Assembly: GCA_017442855.1 (NCBI GenBank)
Contig: JAFSPM010000032.1
Span: 62,001 to 126,000 of the forward strand
Length of the DNA stretch: 64,000 nucleotides
Direction of reading: 5' to 3'
DNA from: Bacteroidaceae bacterium
GTDB lineage: Bacteria; Bacteroidota; Bacteroidia; Bacteroidales; Bacteroidaceae
Shown in pieces: positions 5,418 through 61,497 of the stretch (positions are counted from its first letter, which is position 1; each line of letters opens with the position of its first letter). Position numbers and translations under genes: made by a program. Below the pieces are notes generated by a model, which had not been told where the DNA came from, made no database searches, and saw nothing but the letters and a program-made list of their open reading frames with translations.

Positions 5418-6420
5418 AGTCTTTTATACGATATTACTTTTATGCACAGTTGCTATCCTGGCTATTGGCTGCCAGGATAGCAACTATTGGGAGAAGACCC
5501 AAAGAAGTAGAGGCAATCTTACTGAGGTCAAAAAGAATGTCAAGTTGCTAGAGCCTGACAGCGTTTTGCTAAGTGACTTCTCATATATCAAGGTGTTAGG
5601 GAATTACTTGGCGATACCTGATTTAAAGTCGTCTGGTAAATTAGTACATTTGTTTGATAAGGAGACATTGTCTTATATCGCCAGTGCCGGTAATTTAGGG
5701 CAAGGTCCAAGAGAGATATCATCAATCGCCGCTGTGGCCTATGATGAAAAGGATGATTGTTTGCAGGTTGTGGATTATGGAAGTAAAAACGTCTATAGCT
5801 TCAACATGGATGACGTGAGGAAGAATCCAGATTATTTGCCAAGCGTGAAACTGGAGTTAAGAAATGATGTTGTCCCTTATGAGTACCACTTTTTGAGTGA
5901 CACTTTAAGCTATGGCTCTTTTATTATTCCTGATGGTCAATCAAGCTCCATGAGAATTGGTAGGTGGAACATGCATACTGGCGAGGTGCAAGTGCACAAT
6001 AGTGAGCATCCTGCAACTAAAGGAAATGTTGTTGTATATGATTATTCAAACAAACATGATTTGATAGTAGAGTGTAGCAACAAATATGACTTGATAAACA
6101 TTTTCGATGGTCAACTCAATTTGAAAACCCGAGTATATGGACCAGAATGGGAAGAGAATGGTGACAATAAACAACATTTCCTAAGTGTAGTTATATACAA
6201 AGACTGGATTATTGCAGCTTATGACGGGAAAGACCGACAAACTGATAGTATGCCTACGATTTGTCATGTTTTTGATTTGGATGGCAATTATATAAAAACA
6301 CTCGACATTGGCTATAAAATCTGGCGTATGAGTGTGGATGAAGATAATGACCGTCTGTATCTCTCTTTCCAAGATGAGATTCAATTTGGCTATTTAGATT
6401 TGAAGGGGATTTTAGACTGA
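5410..6420 (+). CDS. BF3164/TolB-like 6-bladed beta-propeller lipoprotein 2
   Basis: 336 residues with lipobox AIGC (Cys21) and propeller blades. The blade motif NLGQGPREI matches NMGQGPEEF of the first copy, showing the two are diverged paralogues. The start overlaps the end of the NVEALA peptide 2 gene by 8 bases. The product should be a lipid-anchored envelope protein. The gene ends 11 bases before the signal peptidase start, so the locus looks cotranscribed. No catalytic residues are recognised. Confidence 0.75.
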   Translation: MTKVFYTILLLCTVAILAIGCQDSNYWEKTQRSRGNLTEVKKNVKLLEPDSVLLSDFSYIKVLGNYLAIPDLKSSGKLVHLFDKETLSYIASAGNLGQGPREISSIAAVAYDEKDDCLQVVDYGSKNVYSFNMDDVRKNPDYLPSVKLELRNDVVPYEYHFLSDTLSYGSFIIPDGQSSSMRIGRWNMHTGEVQVHNSEHPATKGNVVVYDYSNKHDLIVECSNKYDLINIFDGQLNLKTRVYGPEWEENGDNKQHFLSVVIYKDWIIAAYDGKDRQTDSMPTICHVFDLDGNYIKTLDIGYKIWRMSVDEDNDRLYLSFQDEIQFGYLDLKGILD

Positions 6421-55697: not shown

Positions 55698-55935
55698 ATG
55701 AACAACAAAGAACCTGGATACGTTTATATACTGACTAATCCCAGCTTTCGCGAGGATTGGGTAAAGATAGGCAAGAGCAGTCGTCCTGTGGATGTACGGA
55801 GCAAGGAATCACAGAAACACCTCTGGTGTCTATCAAGATGCCAAGTATTTTTCATATAATGGGAAAGTGCTGGATGAGATAAGGAAAGATTTAAGAAATC
55901 AAAATATAAAACATATAAAACGTTGTATAACATGA
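55698..55935 (+). pseudogene. GIY-YIG nuclease gene remnant (internal deletion, frameshift)
   Basis: ATG 55698 opens MNNKEPGYVYILTNPSFRED with WVKIGKSSRPVDVR, the start of GIY-YIG (T5orf172/Mug113-type) nucleases: GYVYI and then WVKIGK are the GIY and YIG strands. After residue 37 the frame slips and ends at 55857. In another frame the DNA continues as YQDAKYFSYNGKVLDEIRKD to TGA 55933-55935. So the middle of the gene, with its Arg and Glu active residues, is gone. The last stop overlaps the ATG of the ORF6N gene (ATGA). Confidence 0.65.
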
Positions 55936-56638
55936 GTAACATACAGAATAATAAAAGTTCATTTCATCGCGACGAACAATTCCCCTTTTTATATTCGCAA
56001 GTACATAGTCATATCATCGAAATCAGACAAACACTGATTATCGTTGATGCCGATGTTGCTACCTTGTATGGCGTTGAGACCAAGAGAGTAAATGAAGCGG
56101 TGAGGAACAACCCTGACAAGTTCCCCGAAGACTATATGTTTGTACTTACAACAGAGGAGTTACAAGATTTGCGGTCGAAAAATTCGTCCACAAAAGTCTC
56201 CACCAAAAGCCGGACATTGCCCAAGGCTTTCACGGAGAAGGGACTCTATATGCTTGCTACCATCTTGAAAAGTGAACGGGCAACAGCAGTAACCTTTGCC
56301 ATCATAGAAACTTTTGCGAAGGTTCGCAGCTTGAAACGAGAACTCGTTGAACTCCATAAAGAGACTGACAGCCACAAACAGAAAGATAAAATGCGTCATT
56401 TCGGCGAAGTGCTATCTGACATTGTTATGCCTGACTTGGAAACCTCTGAAACAGAATCCACATTGGAATTGAACTTCTTTATTGGCAAAATAAAGCATAC
56501 CGTGAAGAGAGTAAAGAAAAATAAAGATGACAAAAGAGATAATCAATAAGCTTATTTTATGTATCCTGCCCCTAATGCCTATCAGGGTGCCAAGTATTTT
56601 TCGTATAACGGGAAAGTGCTAGATGAAATAAGAAAGGA
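55831..56638 (+). repeat. 59-base direct repeats flanking the ORF6N gene
   Basis: 55831-55889 and 56580-56638 match at about 51 of 59 bases and encode the same peptide, AKYFSYNGKVLDEIRK. They bracket the ORF6N gene exactly. This suggests a cassette inserted by, or able to leave through, homologous recombination. Confidence 0.7.
55932..56549 (+). CDS. ORF6N domain protein
   Basis: 205 residues from ATG 55932. An ORF6N (KilA-N related) DNA-binding domain spans about 20-110: SHIIEIRQTLIIVDADVATL, VETKRVNEAVRNNPDKFPED, LPKAFTEKGLYMLATIL. The C-terminal half is helical and charged. Such proteins occur in phages and defence islands and may bind DNA. It overlaps the end of the GIY-YIG remnant by 4 bases and is flanked by direct repeats. 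Confidence 0.88.
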   Translation: MSNIQNNKSSFHRDEQFPFLYSQVHSHIIEIRQTLIIVDADVATLYGVETKRVNEAVRNNPDKFPEDYMFVLTTEELQDLRSKNSSTKVSTKSRTLPKAFTEKGLYMLATILKSERATAVTFAIIETFAKVRSLKRELVELHKETDSHKQKDKMRHFGEVLSDIVMPDLETSETESTLELNFFIGKIKHTVKRVKKNKDDKRDNQ

Positions 56639-56671: not shown

Positions 56672-58744
56672 ATGGCAAGCAAACAGAAGCATAGTATAGA
56701 GGAGCTGGTGGAGCAATGGGCTAAAGAGCAACTGAAAGGAATAAAGATTTACACCAAGAACGATTTCATCAATTCGCAAATTGAAAAGGCATTAAAAACA
56801 GCTCCTTCAAAAAAAGGAGGTAAGGGACCAAATTACCCCGACATTAAATGCATGATTCCGACAGCAGAAGGGGACATTCCTGTGATGATTGAAGTTAAGG
56901 GGATGGAAGATGCGCTTATAAAGATTGATGAAGAGACAGGATTGCCCGATAATGAGACGAAAAAAGGCGAGCCGAACTTTGCAAATATCTCCAAATATGC
57001 AGTCAATGGTGCCGTACACTATGCCAATGCTGTCGTGCGACATACAACATACAAAGAGGTGATAGCCATCGGAGTAAATGGATATGAGGAAGAAACTGGC
57101 AACATCATTTATGAAGTAAGTGCATGGTTCCTTTCCCGTCAGAATCTCTTCATTCCAAAAGAAATTGGACGCTACAGCGACCTCTCGTTCCTGTTGACAG
57201 CGTATCAACAGGAATTGTTAAAGCAACTTGCTGAGATTAACCTAACTGAGGCTGAGATAGAGCAGCAGAAGTCCAAGTTGGAGGATGACATTGAACGCAA
57301 GCTGAAAGACTTGAACCAAAAGATGCAGGACGAACTGCATATTGTAGTCAATCAGCGCGTACAGCTTGTGACGGGCCTGATTATGGCAGGATTAGGGGTA
57401 AAAAATGAGGACGGCACGTTCAAGGTACACCCATTACAAGAAGACGAATTGCGGGGCAACACCGATGCTGAGAACAACGATGGTGCTGTCATCATGGGTA
57501 GAATCAAGTCTTACCTGAAAAACAAGAGTCTGCCCGAAGAGAAAATAGACATGATTTATGGTATTCTTAAGGTGGTGTTCTTAAATTCACATCTTGAAGT
57601 GCCTGTGAACGGTGAGAGCAAGCTTAAGACACTATATTGTGACATTAAAGCAGATATCATCCCATTCCTCACAGGCGAATTGCACAATCTGGACTTTACA
57701 GGCAGACTGTTTAATGTACTAAATGCGTGGGTTGCCGTTCCTGATGGTGCCGAAAACGATGTGGTACTCACCCCCCGCTCTGTCACGGAATTGATGGCAA
57801 AGCTTTGTCAAGTGAACAAGGATTCGTATGTATGGGACTTTGCAACGGGTTCTGCGGGCTTCCTTATTTCTGCCATGCACCAAATGATAGCTGATGCCAA
57901 AGCCAAGATTGTGGATCCTGACAAAAGGAAAAAGAAAATCCTACATATCAAGACTGAACAACTGCTGGGCATTGAGAAGTTAGCCGACATTTATCTGCTT
58001 GCTGTGTTGAACATGATTCTGATGAAAGATGGTTCTGCAAACATCATTCAAGGAGACTCTTTGACGGATTTCAGAGGCAATTACGAGCAAGGAAAGTTGA
58101 AAGGCAAGCCCTTCCCCGCAGATGTATTCCTGTTGAATCCCCCTTACTCCGCAGCAGGCAAAGGATTTGTGTTCGTGAAGCGCGCACTTAATATGATGAC
58201 CCATAAAGGCATGGCTGCTGTTCTCATTCAGGAGAATGCTGGTAGCGGTAATGGGTTGCCATATACAAAGGATATCCTAAAAAACAATACACTTGTGGCC
58301 TCTATTAAGATGCCGATAGACCTTTTTATCGGTAAGTCGTCAGTACAAACGGCTATCTATGTGTTTGAAGTAGGTAAACCACACACAAAGGAATCTGTAG
58401 TAAAATTTATTGATTTCACGGAAGATGGCTATTCTCGCATGAATCGCCGTCATTCAAGCCAAAGTGTAAATTTGCGTGACACCAACAATGCCAGAGAGCG
58501 ATATGCGGAGGTAGTGAGGTTGGTTATATATGGTAAGGGCGTAAATAATGAGAACCTAAATTATTTCAAAGGCTCATACCTCGAAGACCACATTTCACTC
58601 AATGGCAAAGATTGGACGTATGGGCAGCATAAAAAGATAGAAACTATACCCACAGAAGAAGATTTCCGAAAAGTTGTAAAAGACTATCTTGCCTGGCGAG
58701 TTTCTGAAGTAATCAAACAGGAGGACAGCCTGGGAAAACAATAA
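56672..58744 (+). CDS. Fused nuclease/N6-adenine methyltransferase (Type IIB/IIG or Type I-like RM)
   Basis: 690 residues. N-terminal PD-(D/E)xK nuclease site: Pro56-Asp57 (NYPDIK) and Glu74-x-Lys76 (MIEVKG). A helical region follows (about 180-330), then an HsdM-like methyltransferase with motif I DFATGSAGF (Asp389) and motif IV NPPY (Asn489-Tyr492). No helicase/translocase is present in the window, unlike classical Type I systems. The design recalls BcgI subunit A: cutting and methylation in one chain with a separate specificity subunit. The end has a -1 frameshift signal (58732-58776) leading into the specificity frame. Confidence 0.9.
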   Translation: MASKQKHSIEELVEQWAKEQLKGIKIYTKNDFINSQIEKALKTAPSKKGGKGPNYPDIKCMIPTAEGDIPVMIEVKGMEDALIKIDEETGLPDNETKKGEPNFANISKYAVNGAVHYANAVVRHTTYKEVIAIGVNGYEEETGNIIYEVSAWFLSRQNLFIPKEIGRYSDLSFLLTAYQQELLKQLAEINLTEAEIEQQKSKLEDDIERKLKDLNQKMQDELHIVVNQRVQLVTGLIMAGLGVKNEDGTFKVHPLQEDELRGNTDAENNDGAVIMGRIKSYLKNKSLPEEKIDMIYGILKVVFLNSHLEVPVNGESKLKTLYCDIKADIIPFLTGELHNLDFTGRLFNVLNAWVAVPDGAENDVVLTPRSVTELMAKLCQVNKDSYVWDFATGSAGFLISAMHQMIADAKAKIVDPDKRKKKILHIKTEQLLGIEKLADIYLLAVLNMILMKDGSANIIQGDSLTDFRGNYEQGKLKGKPFPADVFLLNPPYSAAGKGFVFVKRALNMMTHKGMAAVLIQENAGSGNGLPYTKDILKNNTLVASIKMPIDLFIGKSSVQTAIYVFEVGKPHTKESVVKFIDFTEDGYSRMNRRHSSQSVNLRDTNNARERYAEVVRLVIYGKGVNNENLNYFKGSYLEDHISLNGKDWTYGQHKKIETIPTEEDFRKVVKDYLAWRVSEVIKQEDSLGKQ

Positions 58745-58776
58745 GCCCTCGGAAACCTTGCCGAGACCCCGAGGGC
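58732..58776 (+). other. Candidate programmed -1 frameshift signal
   Basis: Heptamer G GGA AAA (58732-58738) is in the exact reading phase (CTG GGA AAA CAA TAA) required for a -1 slip. A 6-base spacer, which includes the stop codon 58742-58744, precedes a hairpin with GCCCTCGG (58745-58752) paired to CCGAGGGC (58769-58776). The 16-base loop holds CCGAG (58761-58765), which can pair with CTCGG as an alternative. The -1 frame is open from here to 60396. Confidence 0.75.
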
Positions 58777-60399
58777 GGATATAAGAAATTTAAAATTGAA
58801 AGTCTGTTTGAAATAAAGAAAGGTAAACGTCTGACTAAAGCACAGATGACAAGCGGTGACATTAACTTTATTGGAGCAACATCCATAAATAATGGACTTA
58901 CCGCTAAAATTTCAAATTCAGAGCATCTGCATCCCGCAGGGACTATTACAGTCACATACAATGGTTCTGTTGGTGAAGCTTTTTACCAAACGAAACCTTT
59001 CTGGGCTTCTGATGATGTAAATGTTTTATATCCTAAAATCCACTTTAATGAACGCATTGCATTATATATCCTTGCTCCATTAATAAAGAAAGGTAAAAGC
59101 TATGGCTATTCTTATAAGTGGACTAAGGAGAAAATGGAAGCGGATGAAATTTATCTTCCCATAACTTCAAATAAGAAGATTGATTTTGTTTTTATCGAGG
59201 AGCGCGTTCGCGAACTCGAAGAGGAGCGCGTTCGCGAACTCGAAGCCTATCTCAAGGAGGCTGGTTTTGAAGATTGCATATTAACGCAATCAGAAAACGA
59301 TGCTCTTCGAATGATTACAGAAGGCAAGAAAAAAATGCAAAGATTTGCCATTATCAAAAAGTTTAAGGTGGCGAACTCTCATAACATTTTGAAATCAGAT
59401 GTTATTTTTAGCAGTGGCACCACCCCATACGTTACCGCCAGTGAAGGAAACAATTCTATCGTCTCATATATTTCTTATAAGCCAGAGATGGTTGAATATG
59501 GCAATTCCATAATGATAGGAGGTAAGACACTTGTCATTACATACCAGCCTCGTGACTTTTTCTCCAATGATAGCCATAACCTCGTTTTAACAATCAATGA
59601 TGAGGCAGGACGTAATGAGTCAGCACAACTTTACATGGTGGCTGCTCTATATAAAACTCTTGGTCCAAAATACTCTTGGGGTGATTCCATCTCTAAGGCG
59701 AAAATCAAGAACGATGTGGTATATCTGCCCGTAACAACTGACGGCGACACGATTGACTATGCTTTTATGTCAACATACGTCAGTGCTATCAAGAAGCAAT
59801 GCATAGCAAGATTGAAGCAGGAAATAGCCAAAGAACGTAGTGCATACGAACAAGTGCTAACAGACCAAGCAAAGGTTGTCGAAATGAATGTGCATAAAAA
59901 GAAACAGTCTGAATTTGACGACTTAGATGTTTGGATGGCAGCCGAGCCTTTTGAGCGTTACAAATGGAAAGGGTTCGACCAAAGCATTTGTGAGTTCTTT
60001 GGTAATAATCAGACAATTCTTGTTGGTTGTTATAAAGGAAAGAAGTATCAAGAATGGATTCATACTCACAATATATATAATATAAGGTTAGGCAAGACAA
60101 AAGGTTCAATGGAGGCAAACCGAGAACTTTTTGAGAGTACATCTATGTTAGTCCTCTATGAATTAGGAAAACCAAATAAGTTGAGTGCGTATAAGATTAC
60201 TGGCCATTTTGAGATAAGTAAAGACGAATTGATAAAATTGGACTATCCCAATAAGAGACCCAGAAAGAGTTATATGGCATTCGACATTGTACCTCTTGAA
60301 ATGGATTTGACTTTCTTAGTTGATCATCATTTGATAGAGAGACTCATAGAACTGAATTCCAACAATTCTAAAGGAACGCCAGTCTTTATAGAGCCATAG
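58738..60399 (+). CDS. Specificity (S) subunit, in the -1 frame of the methyltransferase gene
   Basis: The frame is open from 58708, yet no ATG, GTG or TTG occurs before ATG 58846, although homology to target recognition domains (YKKFKIESLFEIKKGKRLTK) begins about 20 codons earlier. Starting at the frameshift gives 553 residues, or a fused protein of about 1242. Order: TRD1, helix with a doubled EERVRELE, TRD2 (about 180-330 from the ATG), second helix, then about 150 extra C-terminal residues (YKWKGFDQSICEFF onward) not normal for S subunits. The two TRDs should read the two halves of a split DNA site. Confidence 0.8.
   Translation, partial: TISPRKPCRDPEGGYKKFKIESLFEIKKGKRLTKAQMTSGDINFIGATSINNGLTAKISNSEHLHPAGTITVTYNGSVGEAFYQTKPFWASDDVNVLYPKIHFNERIALYILAPLIKKGKSYGYSYKWTKEKMEADEIYLPITSNKKIDFVFIEERVRELEEERVRELEAYLKEAGFEDCILTQSENDALRMITEGKKKMQRFAIIKKFKVANSHNILKSDVIFSSGTTPYVTASEGNNSIVSYISYKPEMVEYGNSIMIGGKTLVITYQPRDFFSNDSHNLVLTINDEAGRNESAQLYMVAALYKTLGPKYSWGDSISKAKIKNDVVYLPVTTDGDTIDYAFMSTYVSAIKKQCIARLKQEIAKERSAYEQVLTDQAKVVEMNVHKKKQSEFDDLDVWMAAEPFERYKWKGFDQSICEFFGNNQTILVGCYKGKKYQEWIHTHNIYNIRLGKTKGSMEANRELFESTSMLVLYELGKPNKLSAYKITGHFEISKDELIKLDYPNKRPRKSYMAFDIVPLEMDLTFLVDHHLIERLIELNSNNSKGTPVFIEP
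59197..59244 (+). repeat. Exact 24-base tandem repeat in the S linker helix
   Basis: Two perfect copies (59197-59220, 59221-59244) coding EERVRELE twice between TRD1 and TRD2. In-frame repeat number change here would alter the length of the spacer helix. Confidence 0.9.
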
Positions 60400-60501
60400 T
60401 TAGAATAGGAGATTGTTCTATTGTGATTTAAGAATAATGAAAGAATATAGAAGTTTGCACAAAATGTTATTCTTTCAACTTGCTGGTTAACTCCAAAGCG
60501 C

Positions 60502-61497
60502 TTAGTGGGTAACTGCAATATAGATTAGTGGGTAACTCGAAATAAGATGGTTTTGAAATAAAAAAAAGAGAAACGATATGTGTAAAATGTCAATTCGGTT
60601 TTATAAAGACCATAAGGTACGCGCTGTATGGGACGAAGAGCACAACCATTGGTGGTTCTCGGTTCTCGACATCGTGGGGGCAATCAACGAACAAGATGAC
60701 CATGAGAAGAACCGCAACTACTGGAAATATCTGAAGACCAAATTGCGGAAAGAACAAAGTGAGGTGGTTAGTGACACTACCCAACTGAAATTGACAGCAT
60801 CTGACGGAAAGAAATACCGAACCGACGTCATTAGTCAGTCTGGCGTTGATAAATTGGCAAAAGCCATCAGGAACCAACAGGCAATGGCCTTTCTTGACTG
60901 GTTCACCTACAGCGACAACACTATTGATGGGCAGAGTCGGAAGAAAGCTTATACGCTATGGGAAAGCAATCTGGTGGCTGACAAAGACGTGGGCAAGGTG
61001 AAGGCTCTACAACAGATTCATGCATACCTCTTTGGCGGACTCTACGATTTTGCCGGCAAAATCCGTACGAAAACAATCGCCAAGGGAAATACGCTGTTCT
61101 GCTTGGCGGAGCATCTGCACAACTATCTGAAAACCGTAGAGGCGATGCCTGAGACGACTTTCGATGAGATTGTGGAGAAGTACGTGGAGATGAATGCTGC
61201 CCATCCTTTTATGGAGGGCAACGGACGCTCAACACGCATCTGGCTTGACATGATATTCAAGAAACGCATGAAAATGTGCGTGGACTGGAGCAAAATAGAC
61301 AAGAAAGACTACCTTAATGCCATGATTGCAAGCCACACTGATAGTAGTCGTATTCACGAGATACTGAAAGAAGCCCTAACGGACAAGATTGATGACCGCG
61401 AAATCTTCATGAAAGGCATTGACTATTCCTACTATTATGAACAGGAATAACGATTGAAGGCGAGGAGTAGATAACTCGAAAAAAAGATGGTTTTGAA
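60502..61497 (+). repeat. Direct repeats flanking the Bro-N/Fic gene
   Basis: 60527-60557 (AGTGGGTAACTCGAAATAAG, then ATGGTTTTGAA) and 61466-61497 (AGTAGATAACTCGAAAAAAAG, then ATGGTTTTGAA in register) match in about 27 of 31 aligned bases. A shorter TTAGTGGGTAACT also occurs twice at 60502-60514 and 60525-60537. The repeats bracket the single gene at 60578-61450. Confidence 0.65.
60578..61450 (+). CDS. Bro-N / Fic fusion protein
   Basis: 290 residues (ATG 60587 is a later option). Residues about 5-115 resemble the Bro-N DNA-binding domain of phage antirepressors (HWWFSVLDIVGAINEQDD, VISQSGVDKLAKAIRNQQA). Residues about 125-285 are a Fic domain with intact motif HPFMEGNGRSTR (209-220) and the C-terminal end FMKGIDYSYYYE. 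No class II inhibitory helix is seen before the Fic core. The fusion suggests AMP-transfer activity directed or controlled by DNA or phage signals. It lies at the end of the RM island. Confidence 0.85.
   Translation: MCKMSIRFYKDHKVRAVWDEEHNHWWFSVLDIVGAINEQDDHEKNRNYWKYLKTKLRKEQSEVVSDTTQLKLTASDGKKYRTDVISQSGVDKLAKAIRNQQAMAFLDWFTYSDNTIDGQSRKKAYTLWESNLVADKDVGKVKALQQIHAYLFGGLYDFAGKIRTKTIAKGNTLFCLAEHLHNYLKTVEAMPETTFDEIVEKYVEMNAAHPFMEGNGRSTRIWLDMIFKKRMKMCVDWSKIDKKDYLNAMIASHTDSSRIHEILKEALTDKIDDREIFMKGIDYSYYYEQE

Follow-up and report, generated by a model that had tools for sequence, protein, structure and literature searches.

A restriction-modification (R-M) locus in the DNA of a Bacteroidaceae bacterium (Bacteroidota; Bacteroidales) carries, between a gene and the frame behind it, what has the principal marks of a programmed -1 frameshift site. 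The locus lies in a stretch of 64,000 nucleotides (nt), called here the window (GenBank assembly GCA_017442855.1, contig JAFSPM010000032.1, positions 62,001 to 126,000 of the forward strand), whose own numbering is used throughout. The gene, A, encodes a nuclease/methyltransferase (RM); the frame behind it, S, encodes a specificity subunit. Comparison with other loci (named L001 to L065) shows that a -1 frameshift signal between A and S is under selection, since a slippery heptamer, its phase and direction, and a downstream stem are kept beyond what the proteins need. Judging from these sequences, it is very likely that programmed -1 frameshifting occurs at the junction, and it is highly probable that the best explanation of the whole is that frameshifting makes both A and a fused A-S, which would assemble as (RM)2S. 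By analogy with known enzymes, the purpose of the slip is rather likely to be the 2:1 stoichiometry of that assembly.

The junction in the window

At the end of A, the window reads G GGA AAA CAA TAA, with a single codon (CAA) separating the heptamer from the stop. A spacer of 6 nt leads to a stem in which 8 of 8 base pairs (bp) are formed around a loop of 16 nt. When the S frame is resampled synonymously, 1 draw in 500 reaches the same stability (z -3.0). An earlier note on this DNA, made from the sequence alone, had predicted the frameshift from such elements, and the heptamer, its phase, the spacer, the stem, the 553-codon -1 frame and the missing start of S are all present. From the heptamer to the first target recognition domain (TRD1), the S frame of the window contains no ATG, GTG or TTG. 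Its earliest ATG (58846) lies within TRD1, too late for the full domain, as the note had held, given that the Methylase_S similarity begins at S residue 14. The length claimed for the fused form also follows from the frames, 689 residues of A and 553 of S making 1242, joined as SLGK-TISPR. New relative to the note is a Shine-Dalgarno-like AGGAGG upstream of the heptamer (Table 1).

Conservation of the signal

The homologue set consists of the window and 65 further loci. Of these, 43 (window included) are frameshift loci, found in Bacteroidales, in E. coli, on an Acinetobacter plasmid and in viral contigs. In all 43, S lies in the -1 frame behind A, although in L028 just 23 S residues can be seen. 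Counts were made over 34 non-redundant junctions (less than 90% identity over 120 nt at the junction). The heptamer is GGGAAAA in 22 of them, GGGAAAG in 7, AAAAAAG in 3, AAATTTT in 1 and GGATTTT in 1 (L022). A canonical X XXY YYZ in phase with A is thus found at 33 of the 34 junctions, as against 3.7 expected from synonymous codon resampling, and in the bodies of A genes such heptamers occupy 181 of 22,513 codon pairs (0.8%). At the homologous junctions, the A stop follows the heptamer directly or at most 24 nt on, and at 23 of the 34 there is no ATG, GTG or TTG between heptamer and TRD1. The -1 frame evidently codes for a conserved domain, Methylase_S being recognized in all 26 frameshift S proteins tested.

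The stem, of 8-15 bp, begins 4-6 nt beyond the heptamer at 28 of the 34 junctions. Compared with synonymous resamplings of the S frame, it has a mean z of -3.26 and falls within the most stable 5% at 31 junctions and within the most stable 1% at 25. In a group of 19 junctions that share a 12-bp helix, 96.1% of the cells are paired, against 38-49% when one arm is slid, and the covariation score is 0.302, against 0.206 +- 0.018 after shuffling (none of 500 shuffles as high). Four pairs of this helix show two-sided changes, a count that 57 of the 500 shuffles reach. The other 15 junctions, which are nearer the window or have other heptamers, differ in loop length and support the stem locus by locus only. 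Alignment of homologues, the check that the earlier note had called for, comes out on its side: the 43 frameshift loci that keep the heptamer hold S in the -1 frame, the phase and direction of the heptamer persist although its kind varies over four sequences, and the arms of the stem change while their pairing stays.

Within the 20 nt upstream of the heptamer, 18 of the 34 junctions have a complement of at least 6 nt to the anti-Shine-Dalgarno sequence. Synonymous resampling predicts 7.6, and in the bodies of A genes 2.2% of windows contain such a complement. When L038, L045, L047, L048, L061, L062 and L065 are left out, a complement of at least 5 nt is found in 20 of 27, with a spacer of 7 nt in 13 of those 20. 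From this distribution, the element may well help the slip. In Bacteroidia, Shine-Dalgarno sequences are rarely used for initiation, and prfB frameshifting with a Shine-Dalgarno-like element is common (PMC8710568). Such a stimulator is therefore plausible here.

The A and S proteins

A matches the family N6_Mtase (PF02384, E 3e-22) and the PADLOC model Type IIG REase_MTase (E 7e-169), and its fold resembles those of HsdM, PacII and BsaXI RM. Residues P56, D57, E74 and K76 and the motif N489-P-P-Y492 are invariant in all 21 rows of the alignment. No Pfam family was found for the C-terminal domain of the window's S, and sequence searches of the PDB with A and with S gave no match. The features are collected in Table 1.

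Table 1. Features of the A/S locus, in positions of the window
Feature	Position	Strand	Basis or remark
A: PD-(D/E)xK nuclease and N6-adenine methyltransferase, 690 residues, zero frame	56672..58744	+	open reading frame
Shine-Dalgarno-like AGGAGG	58719..58724	+	7 nt 5' of the heptamer; possible stimulator
Slippery heptamer G GGA AAA	58732..58738	+	in phase with A codons GGA AAA
S, specificity subunit in the -1 frame, 553 codons and stop	58738..60399	+	two Methylase_S stretches
TAA, zero-frame stop of A	58742..58744	+	from the open reading frame
8-bp stem, 5' arm GCCCTCGG	58745..58752	+	
8-bp stem, 3' arm CCGAGGGC	58769..58776	+	
TRD1, S residues 14-169	58777..59244	+	Methylase_S; fold match to Type I S subunits
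TRD2 and helix, S residues 197-373	59326..59856	+	AlphaFold model; Type I S fold match
C-terminal domain of S, residues 409-553	59962..60396	+	YTH/PUA-like in model

The number of repeats in the helix after TRD1 of Type I S subunits alters the spacing between the two half-sites. In the window, the helix 3' of TRD1 contains a perfect 24-nt tandem duplication (59197-59244; EERVRELE twice). Two other S proteins have an extra domain, Peptidase_S24 (LexA-like), at residues 410-539 in L013 and 413-531 in L014 (E 1e-8 and 6e-11), which hints at restriction controlled by cleavage.

Natural contrasts

Eight loci contrast with the frameshift loci. In four of them S begins with an ATG: L036 and L037 from lactobacilli, L053 from a viral contig, and L041 from phage phi-42, the last with only 25% identity. 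None of the four has a heptamer in the final 17 codon pairs, and none has an excess stem (z +0.46, +0.47, +0.21 and -1.12, respectively). Homologues with a normal start for S and no slippery site, which the earlier note would have counted against its prediction, therefore do exist; they are read here as lineages free of the mechanism and not as a refutation.

Three more, L006, L007 and L008, are in-frame A-S fusions of 1051-1056 residues, read in one uninterrupted frame, with no heptamer and no excess stem (z +0.39, +1.21 and +0.53). A Pfam-based count of TRDs covered 26 frameshift S proteins, the three fusions and one separate S; two Methylase_S stretches were found in 25 of the 26 (L020, despite its 411 residues, has a single one), one in each of the fusions and two in the separate S of L037. 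In the A tree, the fusions fall inside the frameshift clade, L006 and L007 adjoining L004 and L005 and L008 standing elsewhere, and forcing the three into one group makes the tree 51 log units worse (approximately unbiased test, p-AU 0.025, indicative only, because the grouping was chosen with the first tree already in view). The second A tree has 42 rows; L065, the distant L041 and near-identical rows were left out of it. Because the fusions are scattered within the frameshift clade, frameshifting was apparently lost on two or more occasions, a TRD going with it each time.

The eighth, L063, goes the other way and is, taken singly, the most telling locus. Its junction, GGGAAAAATAGATAGCC, has an extra A that puts S in the zero frame, so that ordinary reading gives the fusion. 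The heptamer is still in phase and the stem is kept (z -2.99, 2 of 500 resamplings); a ribosome that slipped by -1 would meet AAT AGA TAG and produce free A with two extra residues. Decoding would thus be inverted, the slip making free A instead of the fusion, on the evidence of one contig and a run of five A. The same locus has a (GACA)17 tract between TRD1 and TRD2 (5592-5659), after which TRD2 lies in another frame, and its specificity subunit is probably phase-variable.

The E. coli loci differ among themselves at the junction. L045 and L050 share 97.8% identity up to a point 49 nt short of the A stop and then diverge through TRD1, the heptamer changing from GGGAAAG to AAAAAAG and each having a stem of its own (the junction of L050 is identical to that of L049, and the stem test for that type was run on L048). 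The junction and TRD1 look to have been exchanged as a cassette. The annotation pipeline PGAP calls S 'incomplete, missing N-terminus and C-terminus' in L045, L046 and L052, and places its start elsewhere in the frame in L047, L048, L050 and L051.

How the enzyme may be made

The A gene and the S frame would form a single translational unit. The majority of ribosomes would stop at the A stop and release free A (RM). The stem would pause the ribosome at the in-phase heptamer, probably assisted in many loci by the upstream element, and a fraction of ribosomes would move back one base into the S frame and complete a single-chain A-S with both TRDs. With one A tied to S, the second TRD would call for another A, a free one. 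Free A would join A-S, providing one catalytic unit per TRD, and the result would be an (RM)2S complex as in BcgI and BsaXI, with one RM covalently linked to S. If half of the ribosomes (50%) slipped, A and A-S would be made at 1:1, the ratio of such a complex. We lean, with some reserve, toward the broader proposal that a Type IIB-like branch found in Bacteroidota and Gammaproteobacteria, E. coli included, builds (RM)2S by frameshifting, that its loss leads to a symmetric chain with one TRD, and that L063 has inverted it.

Several observations weigh against this account. At 11 of the 34 junctions, an ATG, GTG or TTG stands in the S frame before TRD1 (an ATG in L011, L012, L025 and L034), and re-initiation is therefore possible there. 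The heptamer of L022 is non-canonical, the stems of L004, L013 and L061 are inside the synonymous null (10%, 11% and 16%), and the Shine-Dalgarno-like element is short or absent at 16 of 34 junctions. For the 15 junctions outside the 19-junction group, RNAalifold gives no common structure, and MAFFT leaves the arms unaligned. S is short in L035 (161 residues), L049 (226) and L065 (283), copies that may have decayed. Nor are the z-scores and the junction tests independent, the loci sharing ancestry. As to stoichiometry, that role draws on TRD counts and analogy, and an engineered fusion of the EcoKI M and S subunits restricted in vivo without added HsdM, for which its authors invoke some proteolysis or early termination (PMC3510504). 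A dedicated mechanism to supply free M is thus unproven as a necessity.

Alternative explanations

It is conceivable, though unlikely, that the frameshift is real but that its role lies in timing or level, S being scarce early and restriction late, and not in 2:1 assembly. R-M systems do require the methyltransferase ahead of the nuclease (PMC3850674), and the amount of S would be limited by frameshifting. Limited S, however, would delay methylation and cleavage alike, for BcgI-like enzymes need S for both (PMC3874165). Moreover, the loss of frameshifting is accompanied by the loss of a TRD, and the signal kept in L063 with inverted logic agrees with a requirement for both free A and A-S.

Translational coupling would make a separate S by re-initiation near the A stop, at an AUA or at a TTG or ATG in the stem. 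The A stop does overlap an ATA in many loci, 11 junctions offer the starts already mentioned, and related Lactobacillus loci join A and S through an ATG overlap. Yet the other 23 junctions have no such start, the opening S codons of L020, L045 and L062 are not ATA, and coupling leaves unexplained why an in-phase X XXY YYZ should occur in four versions and why a strong stem should sit at the would-be start. It is accordingly an improbable account. The related idea that the window's TAA is a mutated ATGA overlap start (ATA for ATG) was not borne out by the homologues, nor was the idea that one G is missing from the window stem.

Very improbable is transcriptional slippage, in which RNA polymerase would add or drop a base at a run. 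A run of seven A, GAAAAAAAG, occupies the site in alleles L047-L050 of E. coli, and L063 has five A, but GGGAAAA and AAATTTT are too short for known slippage of this kind, and heptamer phase, spacer and stem match ribosomal -1 sites. Phase variation at the junction was rejected: there is no repeat tract, the window junction reading GGGAAAAC, and no run of more than seven A was seen in the junctions inspected.

The notion that S has merely lost its start, or a base, through decay or sequencing error can call upon the 'incomplete' S of the PGAP annotations, the three short S frames and the origin of 12 full-length genome_contigs homologues in metagenome assemblies, but it is next to inconceivable, the same frame relation recurring in 43 loci whose sequences come from many assemblies, complete genomes of E. 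coli among them, and heptamer and stem bearing signs of selection; a pseudogene or assembly error is ruled out by that recurrence.

Surroundings of the locus

Directly 3' of S, the window encodes a Fic/DOC protein with a Bro-N domain (60578-61450); to the eye, a similar-looking start lies downstream in L007. A repeat, TTAGTGGGTAACT(CGAA), precedes genes of the island (60500-60547 and 61466-61484), its exact 11-mer occurring twice in the window where 0.03 are expected. It also stands some 50-80 nt before A in L003-L008 and L015; the A of L015 breaks off after roughly 69 residues and adjoins two more copies. From these positions, the repeat looks like a cassette boundary. Upstream of A, a direct repeat of 70 nt (83%; 55820-55889 and 56569-56638) flanks a gene with an ORF6N domain (55923-56549). 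The relative on a Lactobacillus gasseri plasmid, L036, adjoins a second pair of N-6 methylase and S (298-2833).

Collection of homologues

Besides the frameshift loci and the eight contrasts (L006, L007, L008, L063, L036, L037, L053 and L041), 15 loci were set aside: as copies, L001, L016, L029, L030, L031, L039, L051 and L052; as partial or unrelated, L002, L015 and L019; because the record breaks up their A frame, L040, L042 and L043 (S being annotated separately in the latter two); and L044, the opposite end of L038's record. S is cut by the contig end in L009, L026, L028, L032 and L034. L065, in which A itself is split over two frames, was used for its junction only.

The search of genome_contigs with A gave 13 loci. 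In whole-genome searches, matches were found in 4 of 158 genomes from the genus (one partial), 9 of 393 drawn from the order, 8 of 399 from the family, 1 of 395 from the phylum and 1 of 149 from a class, each count including the genome of the window or of the centre itself; the phylum and class draws gained no additional genome. Matches were found in 29 plasmid and 11 phage records, mostly distant. Viral contigs gave 13 matches (L053-L065) with the alignment as query and none with the single window protein. Among 5426 complete E. coli genomes, 29 match the PhiR12_3-type locus, always on the chromosome; in 22 the match spans 80% or more of the locus.

Relation to known systems

The frameshift cassettes of dnaX and of IS3-type elements combine X XXY YYZ with a downstream stem and a Shine-Dalgarno-like element, and dnaX yields two subunits of one complex. 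The junctions described here have the same heptamer, a stem mostly 4-6 nt on, and, in roughly half of the cases, a Shine-Dalgarno-like element. Slipping yields the longer product, as with IS3, or in L063 would yield the shorter one, as with dnaX; the gene family is a new one for such cassettes. The junctions also recall phase-variable R-M genes, in that the frame decides whether S is fused, and L063 has its tract between the TRDs, but the frameshift junctions have no tract of variable length, and both products would be expected in each cell.

Of known enzymes, the Type IIB enzymes BcgI and BsaXI are close in their parts, with an RM of nuclease and N6-adenine methyltransferase and an S with two TRDs. 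BcgI has the composition 2RM:1S (PMC4081073; PMC3874165) and BsaXI (RM)2S, each RM on one TRD (PMC11997821). Their S, however, is a separate gene product, whereas that of the window, with no start ahead of TRD1, would exist only in fused form. The Type IIG and single-chain Type IIB enzymes TstI, AloI and HaeIV unite nuclease, methyltransferase and recognition as do A-S and the fusions L006-L008. They are made by ordinary decoding, at 1:1:1, whereas here free A would be made too, the window's frame being broken by the TAA at 58742 and the change of frame. Engineered enzymes offer a further comparison. The EcoKI M-S fusion ('Type IMS') depends on added free HsdM for cleavage in vitro (PMC3510504), and an M-half-S fusion, which has one TRD, is active in restriction when HsdR is present (PMC6158711). 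M-S with free M and M-half-S with one TRD would correspond to the two natural solutions described here, the latter being the laboratory counterpart of L006-L008, but in the laboratory the frame break was removed, with no recoding signal.

A prior report of programmed frameshifting in an R-M enzyme was not found, in a search outside of which lay most subscription papers, preprints and REBASE; within that scope, it agrees with the earlier note, which knew of no R-M enzyme described as using a -1 signal. Term searches of the accessible text of the GeneTack survey (PMC3711429) and of a 2016 review of recoding (PMC5009743) turned up no R-M case, and where -1 shifting was considered for a fusion of C protein and restriction endonuclease, no such product was observed (PMC3850674). 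Each component, the -1 frameshift and the Type IIB-like enzyme, is known in itself; as far as was searched, their combination, the depth of its conservation and its natural reversals are new.

If the account is true, this would be the first R-M enzyme with programmed frameshifting, conserved between phyla, as far as the searches show, and a natural counterpart to the engineered EcoKI fusions. Frameshifting would explain why some S genes are annotated as 'incomplete'. One message giving two forms would be a simple means to set the amount of each part, and the question of how Type I-like enzymes come by two catalytic units per recognition subunit becomes one that a simple reporter can test.
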